Part shown: piece after piece, positions 1 to 30,515 of the stretch
Layout: every line of letters begins with the position of its first letter
Position numbering within the stretch: position 1 is the stretch's first letter
Assembly (NCBI GenBank): GCA_016871895.1
Contig: VHBO01000001.1
Span: 62,001-126,000 of the forward strand
DNA length: 64,000 bases
Direction: 5' to 3'
From: Gemmatimonadota bacterium
GTDB lineage: Bacteria; Gemmatimonadota; Gemmatimonadetes; Gemmatimonadales; Gemmatimonadaceae
Notes under the pieces: model-generated
What the model was told of the DNA's origin: nothing
The model's database searches: none
What the model saw: only the letters and a program-made list of their open reading frames with translations
Translations under genes and position numbers: made by a program

Positions 1-202
1 CGTCGACGATCACCCGCAGGTAGCTGGCCCGCGCGATCGCGGCGGTGCGGCCGAGGTGCACCGCCCCGGCCACCGCCTCGGCGGCCTGCGTCACGCGGAG
101 GCGGTCGAGTGCGCCCCCCGTCCGCGGGATCGCGACCGAGGCGAAGAGCCCGATCAGCGCGCAGGTGACGACGAGCTCCAACAGGGTGAATCCGCGGGAC
201 AT
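1..202 (-). CDS. Type IV pilin-like / GspH-FimT family pseudopilin, N-terminal part
   Basis: The gene runs off the left edge of the window, so only the first 67 or so residues are visible. The start is MSRGFTLLELVVTCALIG, the classic class III prepilin leader: a short basic segment, Gly before Phe as the prepilin peptidase cleavage site, the Glu at mature position 5, then one hydrophobic helix. The residues after the helix (repeated Ala, 'AAEAVAGAVHLGRTAAIARASYLRVIVD') resemble GspH/FimT minor pseudopilins, which pack in the tip of type II secretion or type IV pilus fibres. A GGAG lies about 9 bases before the ATG, a normal Shine-Dalgarno. The class is sure; the exact pseudopilin type is not. 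Confidence 0.8.
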   Translation of the reverse strand, partial: MSRGFTLLELVVTCALIGLFASVAIPRTGGALDRLRVTQAAEAVAGAVHLGRTAAIARASYLRVIVD

Positions 203-287
203 CGAGGGCTCCGGTGGGGGACCCGCCCACGCTGCGTACATTCCGGCAGGCCGCCCTCATCCCCACCACGCCACCGGTACCGTTCCG

Positions 288-596
288 ATGCCGCGCTCCC
301 ATCGCCCAGACCGTCGCCCGTCACCCGCCCGCCCGCTGCGCCCCGCGCCCCGGTGGTCGTCCCTCGCCTTCCTCGGGGCCTCTGTGGTGTTGCTCGCCTC
401 CGGCTGCTACCAGGATCCGCAGGCCCAGCTCGACGAGGCGCAGGCGCAGCTCGATCTGACGGCGACCCTCGAGGAGCTCGGGAGCCGGTCCGCCGACCTC
501 GCGTTCCAGCTCGATTCGCTCCGCGGCGTCGTGGCGCGGCAGGACACGACCATCGCCCGCCTCGCGAACCTCGCGGGGGTGCCCTATCCCCGATAA
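288..596 (+). CDS. Small predicted lipoprotein with coiled coil
   Basis: A 102-residue product with a basic proline/arginine-rich N-terminus, a hydrophobic segment (SLAFLGASVVLLASGC) ending in a lipobox-like ASGC at about residue 38, and then a regular heptad pattern of Leu and Gln/Glu that predicts a short coiled coil. It would be lipidated and held in the periplasm. No family is recognised. Nine bases separate its TAA from the next ATG, so it is probably co-transcribed with the SelW-like gene and pfkA. The start was chosen because the upstream part of the open frame overlaps the divergent pilin gene. Confidence 0.6.
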   Translation: MPRSHRPDRRPSPARPLRPAPRWSSLAFLGASVVLLASGCYQDPQAQLDEAQAQLDLTATLEELGSRSADLAFQLDSLRGVVARQDTTIARLANLAGVPYPR

Positions 597-605
597 CTTG
601 CCCCG

Positions 606-842
606 ATGCGCGTGAGCATCGAGTACTGCACCGTCTGAAACTACGAGGCGCGGGCCGTCGGTCTGGCGGTCGCGATCCGGGAGACCTGGCCCGACGCCGA
701 GGTGGGGATGATCCCCTCCGGCGGCGGCGTGTTCGAGGTCACCCTCGAGGACCGCGTGGTCTACTCGAAGCGACAGACGGGGCGGCACGCGCGGCCCGGG
801 GAGATCCTCTCCCTCCTCCGCGCCCTGCGACCTGAGACCTGA
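606..842 (+). CDS. SelW/Rdx (SelT/SelW/SelH) family protein with in-frame UGA, candidate selenoprotein
   Basis: Read through the TGA at 636-638 the frame gives 78 residues: MRVSIEYCTV, then UGA, then NYEARAVGLAVAI and on to LLRALRPET. The Rdx/SelW family has a thioredoxin-like fold with a CxxC or CxxU redox motif right after the first strand, inside the pattern EYC-x-x-C/U-x-Y-xx-A. Here the UGA falls exactly at the second redox position (C8-T-V-U11), and the residues that follow (NYEARA, then the ETWPDAEV strand and the GGGVFEVTLEDRVVYSKR hairpin) continue the family pattern to the normal length. So the UGA most likely encodes selenocysteine. A candidate bacterial SECIS hairpin starts 10 bases downstream. 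SelA, SelB, SelD and tRNA-Sec are not in the window, so decoding is inferred. The alternative is a nonsense-mutated gene; the intact frame on both sides argues against long-standing decay. Confidence 0.72.
649..674 (+). promoter_or_regulatory. Candidate bacterial SECIS hairpin
   Basis: The RNA just after the UGA can fold as CGCG (649-652) with CGCG (671-674), a G-U pair, then GCC (654-656) with GGC (665-667), leaving an apical loop GUCGGUCU. The loop carries GGUCU at 660-664, about twenty nucleotides after the UGA. Bacterial SECIS elements are short hairpins inside the coding region with a guanine-uracil motif in a small apical loop at about this distance, recognised by SelB. The right arm has a two-base bulge. 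The fold was judged by eye. Confidence 0.45.
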
Positions 843-863
843 CCCCTGACCCCTGTCCCCTGA
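831..863 (+). repeat. Heptanucleotide tandem repeat CCTGACC, overlaps selW-like stop codon
   Basis: Four full units and one partial unit in strict 7-base phase: CCTGAGA, CCTGACC, CCTGACC, CCTGTCC, CCTGA. The second unit supplies the TGA stop (840-842) of the SelW-like gene, and the last unit abuts the pfkA ATG. The last residues of the protein (PET) are therefore repeat-encoded. The same unit family, as AGGGGTC, recurs around 25091-25237. Confidence 0.85.
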
Positions 864-1943
864 ATGCGGATCGCCATCTCCACCGGCGGCGGTGACGCCC
901 CGGGCCTGAACGCCGTCATCCGTGCCGCGACCCTCTCCGCGCTCTCCCGCGGGTGGTCGGTGCTCGGCATCAAGCGCGGCTACGCCGGCCTCCTCGGGGA
1001 CGATGAGATCGTCCCGCTCACCGTCGAGTCGGTGCGCAACATCGGCCACTTGGGCGGCACCATCCTCCGCACCACCAACCGGGGGAACCCGTTCGACTTC
1101 CCGCGCCTGCAGCCCGACGGCTCGTATGTGAGCGTGGATCGTTCCGACGAGCTGATCGAGAACGCACGCAACCTCGGGATCGAGGCGATGATCTCGATCG
1201 GCGGTGACGGCTCGCTCGCCATCGCGCAGAAGCTCGTGGATAAGGGGATGCGCATCGTCGGCGTGCCGAAGACCATCGACAACGACGTCTCCTGCACCGT
1301 CACGACGTTCGGCTTCGACACCGCGGTGCAGACGGCGATCGAGGCGATCGACAAGCTGCAGACCACGGCCGAGAGCCACGACCGCGTGATGGTGCTCGAG
1401 GTGATGGGGCGCGACGCGGGGTTCATCGCGCTGCACTCGGGGGTCGCGGGCTCCGCCGACGTGGTGCTCCTCCCCGAGATCCCGTGGCGGCTCGATGCCG
1501 TCTGCGAGACGATCATGGAGCGCGACCGGACCGGCCGGAAGTTCGCAATCGTCGTGGTCGCGGAAGGGGCGATGGACGAGCACGGCGAGACCTCGCTGAT
1601 CGGGGAGTCGATGCCGGGGCAGGCGCCGCGCATCGGCGGCATCGCCCATCGACTCGCCAAGTCGATCCAGCAGCGGACCGGGAAGGAGTGCCGCGCGCTG
1701 GTGCTCGGCCATCTGCAGCGTGGCGGGATGCCGACCGGCTACGACCGTTTCCTCGCGACGCGCTTCGGCGCGGCGGCGACGCAGGCGGTGGCGGACGGGA
1801 AGTGGGGGCAGATGGTGGCGCTGCAGACGCCGAACATCGTGACGGTGCCGATCGTCGACGTGCTGAAGGAATCGAAGCGGGTGGATCCGCATCACGATGT
1901 GGTGCGGACGGCGCGGGCGTGCGGCATCAGCTTCGGGGACTGA
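864..1943 (+). CDS. pfkA: 6-phosphofructokinase
   Basis: Phosphorylates fructose 6-phosphate to the 1,6-bisphosphate, the committed step of glycolysis, in the cytosol. The 359-residue protein shows the PFK landmarks: TGGGDAPGLNAVIR (residues 7-20), IGGDGS (112-117), PKTIDND (135-141, catalytic Asp), and MGRDAG (181-186, substrate binding). The Gly after GGD is the residue typical of ATP users (PPi enzymes have Asp there), while the Lys in PKTIDND is typical of the group III and PPi-type branch. The mixed pattern occurs in long actinobacterial-type ATP-PFKs. ATP as donor is therefore likely but not certain. It follows the SelW-like gene after 21 bases. Confidence 0.92.
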   Translation: MRIAISTGGGDAPGLNAVIRAATLSALSRGWSVLGIKRGYAGLLGDDEIVPLTVESVRNIGHLGGTILRTTNRGNPFDFPRLQPDGSYVSVDRSDELIENARNLGIEAMISIGGDGSLAIAQKLVDKGMRIVGVPKTIDNDVSCTVTTFGFDTAVQTAIEAIDKLQTTAESHDRVMVLEVMGRDAGFIALHSGVAGSADVVLLPEIPWRLDAVCETIMERDRTGRKFAIVVVAEGAMDEHGETSLIGESMPGQAPRIGGIAHRLAKSIQQRTGKECRALVLGHLQRGGMPTGYDRFLATRFGAAATQAVADGKWGQMVALQTPNIVTVPIVDVLKESKRVDPHHDVVRTARACGISFGD

Positions 1944-1981
1944 TGGTGTCCGTCCGGCGAACCCTCGCGCGCCCGACGGGT

Positions 1982-2437
1982 ATGAGGGCGGGTCCCCTCA
2001 CCCGTCCGCCCGTGCAACTCGTCCGCCCGCTCGCCCTCGTCCTCGCCCTCGGCGCTCCCTCCCTCCTCGCCGCACAGGTCCGCGGCGTCTCCGTCACCGC
2101 CCCGGCCGCGCCCGCCGGCGCCCGTGCCACCACGCCGGCGGTCCCGGTCCATCTCCTTCCGCCCGCCGGGAAGTGTCGCGTCTGGATTGAGGAGGTGCCC
2201 ACCGCGCAGCAGCCCGCCCCGACCGACTGCGCGACCGCCCTCCGGTTGAAGCCCGCGAATGCGGTGGTCCTGTACGGTCCGCCGCTCCGGGAGGAGGAGG
2301 ACGCGTTCGAGCGTGGCGCCTCGGCGACCTCGCGTCCGGCGGCACGGAGCGCAGACGAGGCCGTGCCGACGCGCCGTGCGCCCGCGAAGGCCGCCGTCAA
2401 GTCGCCCTCCCGGCCGCCCGCGGAGCGTCGCCCGTAA
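1982..2437 (+). CDS. Secreted protein of unknown function
   Basis: A 151-residue product with a clear signal peptide (RPLALVLALGAPSLLAAQ) and a likely cleavage after AAQ. The mature part has one short conserved-looking block, LPPAGKCRVWIEEVP, with a second Cys 18 residues on (PTDCATAL), so the two cysteines may form a disulphide. The rest is low-complexity Ala/Pro/Arg. I do not recognise a family. An alternative ATG at 1943 overlaps the pfkA stop (TGATG), but it would give an unusually long N-region before the hydrophobic core, so the start at 1982 is preferred. Confidence 0.65.
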   Translation: MRAGPLTRPPVQLVRPLALVLALGAPSLLAAQVRGVSVTAPAAPAGARATTPAVPVHLLPPAGKCRVWIEEVPTAQQPAPTDCATALRLKPANAVVLYGPPLREEEDAFERGASATSRPAARSADEAVPTRRAPAKAAVKSPSRPPAERRP

Positions 2438-2439
2438 CC

Positions 2440-5082
2440 TCACCCACCGGCACCCCGCGGTCCGTCCAGGACCGCTATCTCCCCCCGGACCACGACGCCT
2501 TCGTCCGGTCGGGTGATGCCCGGGGCCGCCTCATCGTCATCGCTCCGACGCGCGCGGCGTGCGAGACGATTGAACTCGCCTTCGGGCTCGAGCTCGAGAC
2601 CCTCCTCTGGACGACGCGCGGCGCCGAGCTGACGGCGCTCGCCGAGCGGATCGCGGAGTCGCCCGACCGCCCACGGCCGGGCTTCGGCATCGTCGCTGGC
2701 ACGGGGACGGGGAAGACCCTCGCCGTCCGCCCGCTCGCCCACGTCCTCCTCGGCACCGACACCCTGCGCGTCGGCGTCGTCAACCGCGAGCGCGAGGCGA
2801 CGCCTGAGACGCCGAGCTGGAACGTCGTGATCGTCACCACGGGGATCGCGCGGCGGTGGTTCCAGGACGGCGTGATCCGCCCGCACGACACGCTGGTGGT
2901 GGACGAGATCCACCAGACGAGCGCCGAGCTCGAGCTTTGTCTCGCCCTCGGCAAGCGCACGGGGTGCCGGTTCCTGTGGCTCAGCGCGACGGTCGATCCG
3001 TCGTTCTACGCGCGGTATCTGCACGCCGCCGAGGTGATTGAGTCGAGCGCGTTCGACCCGGCGAAGGCCGCGCGCGTGGTGGTGGAGCGGAAGCCCCCCA
3101 CGCGCTTCCTTGATGACCGATTCCTACAGCAGGTGATCAAGGAGCGACGCGGTGTCGGCGTCTTCCTCCCGACGCGTGCGGCAGTCGAGGCGGTCGCGGC
3201 GGATGTCGGGGCGCGCTACCCGCGCCTCAATGTGGCGTTCTATCACGGGGGCGAGCCGATCCGCGCGATCCGGCCCTTCCTCGAGGGAGAGGTGGAGAAG
3301 CCCTTCCTCCTCGCGATGACGGCGGCGGGGCAGAGCGCGCTCAACGTGCGAGGCCTCGATACGGTGGTGATCGATGACACGCGATTCGCGAACGTCGTCG
3401 AGCGCGGGCGGAACGTCCTGACGAAGCTGCATCTCGGTGCGAACGAGATCCTGCAGATGGCGGGGCGTGTGCACGGCCGCGTGGCCGGTGGGCGCGTCTT
3501 CCTCCTCTCGGACCGCGACCTGCGCTTCGATCGCCTCGAGCCGACCGCGCCCGACTTCCAGCTCGCGGGCGATTCCGAGCGCGTCGCGCTCACCTGCGCC
3601 GCCCTCGGCGTCCGCGCCGACGCCCTCGATCTTCCGGTGCCGCTCGACACGCGGTCGTATCGCGACGCGGTCACCTTCCTGCGCGGCCGCGGGATCATCG
3701 ATGGGGATCGACTGACCCCGTACGGGCGCCAGGTGGAGGCGATGCCCGTCGACCGGCCCTGGGCGGAGTTGTTGGTGCACTGCGACGATGCGCTGCTGCC
3801 CTATGTGAGCGTGATGGCAAGCATCGAGTCGTTGCACCGGATGACGCGGGAGGACCGCGACCTCGCGGGGCTCGTCGTCGCGGGAAGCGACCACCTCACG
3901 ACGTACAACGTCTACGCGGAGGCGTTCGCGAAGTGCGGATATGTGGGGGAGGTGTACGGGCTCCCGCGACATCTCTTCGACGAGAGCGTGCAACGCTGGG
4001 CCGAGGGGCGCGGGGTGCTCGTGAAGGCAATCGAGGACGCCGCGCTCGCGATGGCGAGCATCCATCGCTCCGTCGGGGTGCCGCTCCCCACGGTGATGCC
4101 GCGCACGACGCCGGCGATCGAGCGGCGCTTCGTGGAGCTGCTGGCGCGGATCATGCCGTTCCAGCTGGTGATCGACGAGGAGACGGCGACGGGAGATGAG
4201 GCGCGCGTCTCGAAGACGAGCGTCTGCGGGAGTTGGGGCGCGGTGGCCGGGACGCTGCGCTACTTCGCCGACAAGTTCGGTGTGCCGCGTGCGGCGATCG
4301 AAGGGACGCAGCTCCCGATGGACTTCGTGCGACGATACGCGACGCGTGAGGTCCCGCGGGTGGCTTACGACCCATCCAAGCGCGATCGGCCGCTCGCGTT
4401 GGAGCGGGGGCTCACCTACTTCGGCTTCACGCTCGAGCACGAGCGCGAGGCGCTCGCCGACTTCACGCCGGCGTTGGCACCGGAGATCCGGCGCGTGCTC
4501 GCCGAGGCGCTCGCGCGCGGCGAGGCGCGGCACCCGGCCGTGCCGCGCAATCGCGAGGCGATCGAGGCGGTGCGTGAGACCTGGCGCCGCTCGGGTGGCG
4601 TGACGCCGCGTCTGCAGCTCGCCGAGCTGACGGCGTGGTACGAGGCCGCGCTCGGTGAGGTGCACGACCTGCATCAGTTCCGGGCCGCGCCGTTGCGGCT
4701 CGAGGCGGCGGCGTTCGTCTCGGAGGAGGTGCGGGCGCGCTGGGCGACGTTGCCGGGTGCGGTGGAGATCCGTGAGCGGACCGTGCCGATCCACTATGAG
4801 GTGGAGGAGACACCGGAGGGATCACGCGGTGTGGCGCGGCTCGTGCTGAATGAGAAGCTGGCGCGCGGGCTCGTGTCGGAGGAGCTCCCGACGTTGGACC
4901 GTCCGTTGCGTTTCACCGTGACGCGTGGCGCGCGCGGGGCCGTGCGGGCCGGTTCGCTCGATGAGCTGCGGGAGAAACTCGCGGCGCCGTGGAGCGACGG
5001 GGAGTCGAGGGGGGAGCAGGGGGAGCGCGGTGGTCGGGGTGGTCGGGGTGGTCGGGATGGACCGGGGAGGCGAAGGCGCTGA
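2440..5082 (+). CDS. DEIH-box ATP-dependent helicase (HrpA/HrpB-like) with RGG tail; start unresolved
   Basis: An SF2 helicase that would unwind RNA or DNA with ATP. Walker A AGTGTGKT lies at 2695-2718, the Walker B/motif II DEIH at 2902-2913, the SAT-type motif III (LSATVD) near 2980, and motif VI QMAGRVHGR at 3454-3480. The middle and C-terminal domains do not match classic HrpB closely. The tail has repeated RGG (GERGGRGGRGGRDG), an RNA-binding type of sequence made by a 9-base tandem repeat near 5030-5057. The frame is open from the TGA at 2188, yet holds no ATG, GTG or TTG before the GTG at 2827, which lies after Walker A. Translation must begin upstream of 2695, so the start given is only the first codon after the preceding gene ends. 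Confidence 0.75.
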   Translation, partial: SPTGTPRSVQDRYLPPDHDAFVRSGDARGRLIVIAPTRAACETIELAFGLELETLLWTTRGAELTALAERIAESPDRPRPGFGIVAGTGTGKTLAVRPLAHVLLGTDTLRVGVVNREREATPETPSWNVVIVTTGIARRWFQDGVIRPHDTLVVDEIHQTSAELELCLALGKRTGCRFLWLSATVDPSFYARYLHAAEVIESSAFDPAKAARVVVERKPPTRFLDDRFLQQVIKERRGVGVFLPTRAAVEAVAADVGARYPRLNVAFYHGGEPIRAIRPFLEGEVEKPFLLAMTAAGQSALNVRGLDTVVIDDTRFANVVERGRNVLTKLHLGANEILQMAGRVHGRVAGGRVFLLSDRDLRFDRLEPTAPDFQLAGDSERVALTCAALGVRADALDLPVPLDTRSYRDAVTFLRGRGIIDGDRLTPYGRQVEAMPVDRPWAELLVHCDDALLPYVSVMASIESLHRMTREDRDLAGLVVAGSDHLTTYNVYAEAFAKCGYVGEVYGLPRHLFDESVQRWAEGRGVLVKAIEDAALAMASIHRSVGVPLPTVMPRTTPAIERRFVELLARIMPFQLVIDEETATGDEARVSKTSVCGSWGAVAGTLRYFADKFGVPRAAIEGTQLPMDFVRRYATREVPRVAYDPSKRDRPLALERGLTYFGFTLEHEREALADFTPALAPEIRRVLAEALARGEARHPAVPRNREAIEAVRETWRRSGGVTPRLQLAELTAWYEAALGEVHDLHQFRAAPLRLEAAAFVSEEVRARWATLPGAVEIRERTVPIHYEVEETPEGSRGVARLVLNEKLARGLVSEELPTLDRPLRFTVTRGARGAVRAGSLDELREKLAAPWSDGESRGEQGERGGRGGRGGRDGPGRRRR

Positions 5083-5112
5083 AGGCGGGAGGCTGAATGC
5101 TGGAAGCTGGAA
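5078..5112 (+). repeat. Heptanucleotide tandem repeat GCTGAAR, overlaps helicase stop codon
   Basis: Five units in 7-base phase: GCTGAAG, GCGGGAG, GCTGAAT, GCTGGAA, GCTGGAA. The first unit contains the TGA stop of the helicase (5080-5082). Same unit family as 7648-7696 and 30360-30515. Confidence 0.8.
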
Positions 5113-5232
5113 GTGAACGGCGGGGATTGGACTGAGTCTACAATAACGGCGTACACTTTCTATACACCCTGTCGTCGCTTTTAGATTTAAGTCATTAGCA
5201 TTTATCAACTTACGAGCTCTCGTCATTCCATC

Positions 5233-7082: not shown

Positions 7083-7652
7083 ATGACCGATCCGTCGAGT
7101 GCCCCCGTCGCTGCGCTGTCCGCGGTCCACCGCGTCGCGGTAGGCTCGCGCAATCCGGTGAAAGGGGCGGCGGTGGGCGCTGTGCTCGGGCGCGTGGCAC
7201 CGCGGGCGGTGCTCGAGGCGGTTGCCGCGGCGAGCGGGGTCCCCGACCAGCCGTTCGGTGATGCGGAGACGATCGCCGGCGCGCGCGCCCGTGCCCACGC
7301 CGCGCGGGCCGCCACGGACGCGGACCTCGGCGTCGGGCTCGAAGGGGGCGTCGTCGACGGGCCCGAGGGGATGCGCACCTGTGCCTGGTGCGTCGTGGTC
7401 GACCGCGACGGTCGGGAGGGGGTGGGCGGGTCGCTCGCGATGCCGCTCCCCGATGCCGTCGCCCGGATGATCCGCGATGGGATGGAGCTCGGGCACGCGA
7501 TGGACGCCCTCGTCGCCACCCACGGGACGAAGTACGGCGCCGGCGCCGTCGGGATCCTCACGGCGGGGCAGATCGACCGGCAGGGGGCTTATGAGGTGCT
7601 GGTGACGTACGCGTTGGCGCCGTTCGTGCGGAGCGAGTTGTACGGGCGATGA
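7083..7652 (+). CDS. Inosine/xanthosine triphosphatase (YjjX/NTPase_I-T family)
   Basis: A 189-residue housecleaning enzyme that hydrolyses deaminated purine nucleoside triphosphates (ITP, XTP) so they are not built into nucleic acids. Family marks: VAVGSRNPVKGAAV near the N-terminus (NPVK binds the phosphates), ASGVPDQPFGDAETIAGARARA, the acidic GVGLEGGV block, and the CAWCVVVDRDG and GTKYGAGAVGILTAGQIDR blocks toward the end. The length matches the family. The start is 6 bases after a TAGATT box. The stop codon lies in the first unit of a heptanucleotide repeat array. Confidence 0.88.
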   Translation: MTDPSSAPVAALSAVHRVAVGSRNPVKGAAVGAVLGRVAPRAVLEAVAAASGVPDQPFGDAETIAGARARAHAARAATDADLGVGLEGGVVDGPEGMRTCAWCVVVDRDGREGVGGSLAMPLPDAVARMIRDGMELGHAMDALVATHGTKYGAGAVGILTAGQIDRQGAYEVLVTYALAPFVRSELYGR

Positions 7653-7744
7653 AGGCTGGAAGCTGAAAGCTGAAAGCTGGAAGCTGAAAGCTGAACGACA
7701 GCGCGGAGTCAGCCTCCAGCCTCTACCCGCCTCACGCCTTCCGC
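7648..7744. repeat. Facing heptanucleotide arrays between convergent genes
   Basis: Plus-strand array 7648-7696: GATGAAG, GCTGGAA, GCTGAAA, GCTGAAA, GCTGGAA, GCTGAAA, GCTGAAC, seven units in phase; the first contains the TGA of the NTPase gene (7650-7652). Minus-strand array, more degenerate, 7710-7744: units read as GCGGAAG, GCGTGAG, GCGGGTA, GAGGCTG, GAGGCTG; the second contains the TGA of the stress-protein gene (7734-7732). Each gene thus ends in its own array, and the arrays are inverted relative to each other. Confidence 0.8.
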
Positions 7745-23887: not shown

Positions 23888-25096
23888 ATGTCGCATCGCC
23901 CGCGGGCGAGCGGAGGGATCACCGGGTGGGCGCTCAGGCGCCTGCCCGGTTTCGTCTTGCTGTGGATGGCGGTCCACCCTGCCGCGCTCGATGCCCAATG
24001 GCTGCAGTCGAGCGTCGGGCTCGGCGCCGCGAGTGTCCGCTACGCGGAGACGCTCGAGACCACGATGGTGAGCCTCACTCCGACGGTCTCGTGGCTCGGC
24101 ACACGCGGTGTCGTCACCGCGACCGGGGTCTTCGCCAGCGCGTCGCTGCAGGGGGTGTTGGCCGCCGCGCTCACGACGTCGTTCGATGCCCCGCTCGCCG
24201 CGGACCTCACGCTACTCACCGGCGGGAGCCGCACGGATGACGCCGTCACCCGCCAATCGCGCGTGACCGGCCGTGTGCACCTGCGGGCCACGCGTGTCGG
24301 CCTCTGGCTCGGCACCGGCGTCGGTCGCGTTACCGATGGCAGCAGTACGAGCGCCACACGTGTGCACGACCTCGGGGCGTGGGTCGACCTCGGCGGGCTC
24401 GGTGTGACCCTCACGCGATTGCCGACGACCGCAGGGGACACCGTCCGCTTCACCGACACCGAGCTCGGCGTCCGGTGGAACTGGGATCGGCTCACCCTCG
24501 ATGCGACCTCCGGGTGGCGCACCGGCACCGCGCGCGTCTCGGGAATCGACGACCCGGGTCGCTGGCGCAACGTGACCGGTACGTTGCGGCTCTCCGGTCG
24601 CGTCGCCGTCGTGGCGGGCGCGGGGTCGTATCCGCTCGACTTGCTGCAGGGATACCCGGCCGGGCGCTTCACAACGGTGAGCCTGCGGTTCACGCCGGCA
24701 TCGGCGCCGCGCGTGGTGGGGCAGGCCGATTTGCCGGGGGAGGTGGCTCGTGACACCGCTCGTGACACCGCTCGTGACACCGCTCGTGACACCGCTCCGG
24801 AATCGAGCGGGCTCTCGACGCTCATCGTGCAGACGCTTGACGACGATCGGCGTCGGCTCCGCGTGCGGGCGCTCGGCGCGACGACCATCGAGCTGCAGGG
24901 GTCGATGACGGCGTGGGCGCCCGTCTCGTTCGTGGCCGAGGGCGACGGCTGGTTCGCGGTGGAGCTGGCGATCCCGGTCGGCACGCACGAACTCGTGCTC
25001 CGGCGCGACGGCGGACGATGGGTGGTGCCGCCGGGGCTCGCGGTGCGGGTGGATGAGTTCGGGGGGGAGACGGGGGTGGTGGTGGTAAGTAGGTGA
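23888..25096 (+). CDS. Outer-membrane beta-barrel-like protein with C-terminal glycogen-binding-type domain
   Basis: A 402-residue exported protein. After the signal peptide (FVLLWMAVHPAALDAQ) come alternating amphipathic strands (LQSSVGLGAASVRYAE, GVVTATGVFASASLQ, RVHLRATRVGLWLGTG, TLRLSGRVAVVAGAG), as in small outer-membrane barrels. A linker holds four copies of RDTA. The last 85 residues (IELQGSMTAWAPVSF, GWFAVELAIPVGTHELVLRRDGGRW, then VRVDEFGG) follow the same plan as the CBM48-type domain of 21861-22421, which ends with ARDEFGGVHSVLHL. The two proteins of one operon thus carry matching modules, one on the inner and one likely on the outer membrane. The preceding TTG at 23885 is an alternative start. 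Confidence 0.7.
   Translation: MSHRPRASGGITGWALRRLPGFVLLWMAVHPAALDAQWLQSSVGLGAASVRYAETLETTMVSLTPTVSWLGTRGVVTATGVFASASLQGVLAAALTTSFDAPLAADLTLLTGGSRTDDAVTRQSRVTGRVHLRATRVGLWLGTGVGRVTDGSSTSATRVHDLGAWVDLGGLGVTLTRLPTTAGDTVRFTDTELGVRWNWDRLTLDATSGWRTGTARVSGIDDPGRWRNVTGTLRLSGRVAVVAGAGSYPLDLLQGYPAGRFTTVSLRFTPASAPRVVGQADLPGEVARDTARDTARDTARDTAPESSGLSTLIVQTLDDDRRRLRVRALGATTIELQGSMTAWAPVSFVAEGDGWFAVELAIPVGTHELVLRRDGGRWVVPPGLAVRVDEFGGETGVVVVSR
24746..24793 (+). repeat. Four 12-base tandem repeats inside a coding region
   Basis: Four identical copies of GCTCGTGACACC encode ARDT four times in the linker between the barrel and the C-terminal domain of the outer-membrane protein. Whole-codon unit length keeps the frame open if copy number changes. 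Confidence 0.9.
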
Positions 25097-25237
25097 CAGG
25101 GGTCAGGCGTCAGGGGTCAGGTGTCAGGTATCGGGTGTCAGACACCACGATGTGCGGTGCGCTGTGCTGTGCTCCATCGTGACATTCAGTTCGTCCTGAT
25201 TCTTGGTCCCTGAGCCCTCACCCCTGACCCCTCATCC
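25091..25237. repeat. Facing heptanucleotide arrays (AGGGGTC family) between convergent genes
   Basis: Plus-strand array 25091-25139: AGGTGAC, AGGGGTC, AGGCGTC, AGGGGTC, AGGTGTC, AGGTATC, GGGTGTC, seven in-phase units; the first contains the TGA of the outer-membrane protein gene (25094-25096). Minus-strand array 25237-25210: GGATGAG, GGGTCAG, GGGTGAG, GGCTCAG, starting right after the TAA of the transporter gene. The two arrays are complementary enough to fold into one large imperfect hairpin. The 70 bases between them hold nothing recognisable. Confidence 0.82.
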
Positions 25238-30359: not shown

Positions 30360-30515
30360 ACTGAACGCTGAAGGCTGAAGGCTGAATACTGAAGGTTGAA
30401 GGCTGAACGCTGGAAGTGAGATGCGGAAAGCTGCGGCGGTGAGCACGAAAGTGTCCAGCTGTGAGCTTTCAGCTTTCAGCATCAAGCATTGAGCCTTCAG
30501 CCTTGAGCATTGAGC
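30360..30515. repeat. Two facing heptanucleotide arrays (GCTGAAR family)
   Basis: Plus-orientation array 30360-30415: eight units such as ACTGAAC, GCTGAAG, GCTGAAG, GCTGAAT, GTTGAAG. Minus-orientation array 30515-30453: nine units GCTCAAT, GCTCAAG, GCTGAAG, GCTCAAT, GCTTGAT, GCTGAAA, GCTGAAA, GCTCACA, GCTGGAC in strict phase. The third of these holds the dnaE2 stop TGA (30499-30497), and the first two encode the last residues of DnaE2. The arrays could pair over a loop of about 37 bases. Confidence 0.85.

Follow-up and report, generated by a model that had tools for sequence, protein, structure and literature searches.

A reading frame on the forward strand of a Gemmatimonadaceae genome, at positions 606-842 of the 64,000-nucleotide stretch of DNA that was analysed (the window), is interrupted by a TGA at 636-638, and the question raised by this locus is whether that codon marks a broken gene or encodes selenocysteine (Sec). 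The window corresponds to bases 62001-126000 of contig C1 of a metagenome-assembled genome of 2.28 Mb in 129 contigs, which is 96% complete. As the preliminary description of the locus had claimed, the frame is otherwise open, its terminal TGA at 840-842 aside.

Read through the UGA, the gene encodes a product of 78 residues, MRVSIEYCTV-U-NYEARAVGLAVAIRETWPDAEVGMIPSGGGVFEVTLEDRVVYSKRQTGRHARPGEILSLLRALRPET, in which U is residue 11 and stands for the TGA at 636-638 (context MRVSIEYCTV-U-NYEARA). With U read as Cys, the whole protein matches the Pfam family Rdx (PF10262; E 6.6e-19, 68.3 bits against a cut-off of 22.6) over residues 2-72 of 78 and positions 1-73 of the 74 in the profile, and because this match runs across the UGA both flanks of the codon belong to one domain. 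The NCBIfam models TIGR02174 (CXXU_selWTH; 57.8 bits, cut-off 34.2) and NF041051 (88.1 bits over the whole domain) also match. The CxxU motif of the Rdx or SelW-like family lies near the N-terminus (C8-T-V-U11) with the UGA at the second redox position, and both this placement and the preservation of the family pattern after the UGA agree with what had been described initially. The GC content at the three codon positions following the UGA (0.75/0.51/0.94) is that expected of coding sequence in a GC-rich gene, and a dN/dS of about 0.26-0.46 in the same region, relative to the nearest relatives, indicates purifying selection. No other Rdx gene was found in the source genome.

The proposal that this organism decodes UGA as Sec had been tied to a search of its genome for the sel genes and tRNA-Sec, and all of them are present, as is expected of a bacterium that makes selenoproteins. 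These are tRNA-Sec (77 bits, anticodon TCA, or UCA in the RNA), selA (512.8 bits, cut-off 267.9), selB (322.2 bits when neighbouring pieces are included, cut-off 242.25) and selD (336.8 bits, above the curated cut-off). The selD gene is split by contig ends into C38:3-752 on the minus strand and C58:6-164 on the plus strand, and its C-terminal piece sits shortly before tRNA-Sec on C58, at most 140 bases away. Apart from the contig end it is interrupted only by an in-frame TGA of its own, in the context RCAG-U-ASKMG, which we take to be the usual Sec position of SelD. Judged by gene content, the source organism can make selenocysteine, which supports the proposal. A gene of the peroxiredoxin family at C2:99719-100108 also has an in-frame UGA (FPKVRTGG-U-TAQME), presumably at the usual Sec position of TxxU peroxiredoxins, and is likely a third selenoprotein gene of this genome. 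TxxU is given as a peroxiredoxin Sec motif in the Sargasso Sea selenoproteome study (PMC1088965). An AhpD-like (CMD) selenoprotein was also sought in the source genome, where no CMD gene was found.

The UGA is widely conserved among relatives. The Rdx gene occurs in 107 of 179 genomes of the family, nearly always with exactly one internal stop, a TGA, and inspection of each locus in turn placed the TGA at an identical codon in every case. A UGA-bearing gene at that codon is present in 103 of the 179 Gemmatimonadaceae genomes searched, a count that leaves out one masked locus, two orthologues with Cys and a genome whose sole Rdx gene is a paralogue. Nearly all of the Rdx matches listed in a phylum-wide sample likewise have a single TGA, including those outside the family. 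Alignment of homologues, which had been suggested as a check, revealed UGA or Cys at this codon and no other disruption in relatives. Two sets of apparent exceptions were set aside: genome G160 only seemed to lack the UGA, its sequence being masked with N at the codon, and the stop-free, high-scoring Rdx genes of G002, G005, G008, G113 and G212 are separate genes, paralogues rather than orthologues (those in the first four read as CxxC). One further genome (G106) possesses a divergent, second Rdx-like gene at C151:14099-14251 with its own UGA (RYCAY-U-LSGLHA) and a weak Pfam score, which possibly represents another group of selenoproteins.

Across the 179 genomes the UGA-bearing gene and selA occur together in 93, the UGA gene alone in 10, selA alone in 16 and neither in 60, an association with a Fisher p of 6e-22 that is not corrected for relatedness. 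Eight of the 10 genomes with the UGA gene and no selA match are 61-82% complete. Another, G139, is 96% complete and has no selA match, yet it possesses tRNA-Sec and selB, and the lack of a selA match there probably reflects a gap in the assembly.

Downstream of the UGA, at 653-671 on the same strand, is a potential SECIS hairpin with a 7-bp stem (653-659/665-671) and the apical loop GGUCU (660-664), located 21 nt from the UGA. Published rules for bacterial SECIS elements specify a loop of 3-9 nt, an upper stem of 4-16 bp, a G in the first two loop positions, a distance of 16-37 nt from the UGA and an energy of at most -7.5 kcal/mol (PMC13188914), and the hairpin, with its 5-nt loop and an energy of -15.2 kcal/mol, falls within all of these limits. 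The GGUCU-loop element that had been placed about 20 bases downstream is therefore present, but its fold as a single sequence is no better than that of shuffled sequence (z = 0.10, not significant), so the hairpin is no evidence by itself. Single-sequence folding was dropped as evidence for this reason in favour of covariation and codon choice. An Rfam scan of window positions 1-3000 matched no family.

Covariation was assessed in an alignment of 102 distinct sequences, whose columns are numbered with the first base of the UGA codon as 0. Columns 17 and 35 are then window positions 653 and 671, each the third position of a codon, and columns 20 and 32 are 656 and 668. The pairing at columns 17-35 is G-C in 66 sequences, A-T in 20 and C-G in 5. 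Among the 2346 third-position pairs in the gene, 17-35 ranks first and 20-32 second in Watson-Crick excess (covariation z of 11.0 and 3.9, respectively), and both are pairs of this stem. The controls leave some effect of relatedness, most of which is taken out by ranking against all other such pairs in the gene. On a tree built without the hairpin region, 26 changes are inferred at columns 17-35, and in 17 of them both bases changed so that one Watson-Crick pair replaced another. In most sequences the loop reads RGUYU, and it forces AGU and GGU codons that are uncommon otherwise: Ser at the loop codon is encoded by AGT in 58 of 58 cases, compared with 10 of 292 in other parts of the gene, GGT encodes Gly there in 34 of 35 versus 75 of 504, and the remainder of the column is AGG (Arg, 9). 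The mean energy of the hairpin is -14.3, versus -10.6 (sd 0.27) under synonymous recoding. This comparative evidence from covariation and codon choice is decisive and supports the identification of 653-671 as a SECIS element under selection.

Two same-genus relatives, G149 and G135, have CVGC in place of CxxU, with Cys (TGC) at the codon equivalent to 636-638, in the same neighbourhood ahead of a phosphofructokinase-like gene. A search for selA, selB and tRNA-Sec found none in G149, which is a single contig with an estimated completeness of 100%, and none in G135, where completeness of only 71% makes the absences weak. Three other members of the genus (G134, G138 and G148) possess the UGA gene along with selA, selB and tRNA-Sec. 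The conserved UGA is aligned with Cys in homologues, as is characteristic of bacterial selenoproteins, and in the Cys orthologues, where the codon at the hairpin loop reads GCC or GCG, the RGU loop is absent. The family offers a natural experiment, in which one gene at a constant position would have Sec in genomes that possess the machinery and Cys in those without it, and this exchange among close relatives makes the benefit of Sec testable.

The downstream neighbour, at 864-1943 on the forward strand, is a 6-phosphofructokinase-like gene named from the sequence motif ISTGGGDAPGLNAV rather than from a family scan. The motif is found beside 91 of the 110 loci read, including the Cys orthologues, and the gene is conserved context and not part of the selenoprotein. 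Directly upstream is a short lipoprotein-like ORF (about 285-596) with an LASGC lipobox, and at locus L063 a sequence with a similar C-terminus terminates immediately ahead of the Cys orthologue. The window also contains short arrays with a 7-base period and differing units (CCTGACC, TGAAAGC, AGGTGTC, CTGAAGG and others) at 838-863, 5088-5113, 7650-7695, 25091-25141, 25208-25234, 30361-30412 and 30456-30515. The first of these starts at the stop of the selenoprotein gene, and CCCCTGACCCCTG occurs in the window much more often than chance would predict.

A UGA that was a disabling nonsense mutation would make 606-842 a pseudogene, and the locus superficially looks like one, since the TGA breaks the frame after ten residues and a standard gene caller would divide or omit it. 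A UGA on the same codon in more than 100 genomes, with exactly one TGA per gene, is at odds with such decay, as are the purifying selection on the codons that follow and the covariation in the SECIS element. The pseudogene interpretation is refuted because the UGA is conserved with selection downstream of it, and its probability is close to nil. Alternatively, a recoded or suppressor tRNA could insert another amino acid, Trp or Cys, at the UGA. The Cys orthologues indicate that Cys is tolerated at this site, but TGA serves as an ordinary stop here (at 840-842 and, for the next gene, at 1941-1943), the UGA version tracks selA, selB and tRNA-Sec, and the SECIS element is maintained, all of which leave this alternative only slightly more credible and still very improbable. 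Misreading of the UGA may nevertheless yield a minor product under low selenium.

Since the UGA is conserved, the decoding genes are present, the SECIS element is selected and Cys occurs where the machinery is absent, we read the gene as intact: 606-842 almost certainly encodes a SelW-like selenoprotein of the thioredoxin fold, with the UGA at 636-638 read as Sec and forming a Cys8-x-x-Sec11 pair. SelB with Sec-tRNA-Sec would bind the hairpin just downstream of the UGA, this complex would deliver selenocysteine at 636-638, and translation would continue to 840-842. In the product, the Cys8/Sec11 pair would act as a thiol/selenol redox centre within the thioredoxin-like fold. The decoding part of this mechanism is well supported, while the actual insertion of Sec, redox activity and any substrate are inferred, the enzymatic part by analogy with the family. 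This interpretation restores a gene, present across much of a phylum, that automated annotation would omit or label as defective.

The existence of bacterial SelW-like selenoproteins had been stated at the outset. They were already a known family in 2005 (PMC1088965; see also PMC1794560), and their function is called unclear, with a redox role suggested by the CxxU motif (PMC1088965). They share with the gene at 606-842 the CxxU motif, the Rdx/SelTWH domain, a hairpin directly after the UGA and Cys homologues elsewhere. In the available portions of these reports they come from Deltaproteobacteria, Firmicutes, Symbiobacterium and marine sequences, whereas the present gene is from Gemmatimonadota and differs in being flanked by a short lipoprotein-like ORF on one side and a phosphofructokinase-like gene on the other. 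A search of a literature collection with few subscription papers found no description of a SelW-like selenoprotein in Gemmatimonadota. The whole domain is shared with the SelT/SelW/SelH family (seleno)protein model NF041051 (SelTWH_Campy), although the score is barely above its curated cut-off of 88. The solved Rdx/SelW structures 2fa8, 3dex and 2npb are sequence relatives but remote ones, the best match being 2fa8 (E 4.5e-11) and that to Selenoprotein W (2npb) weak (E 0.54). It is rather unlikely that the protein is a widespread and lineage-defining selenoprotein of Gemmatimonadota, kept beside phosphofructokinase through a part in the redox regulation of central carbon metabolism, and one of the chief causes of the retention of Sec decoding in these bacteria. 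The SelW-like selenoprotein predicted here in Gemmatimonadota is a well-evidenced addition to an already known family.
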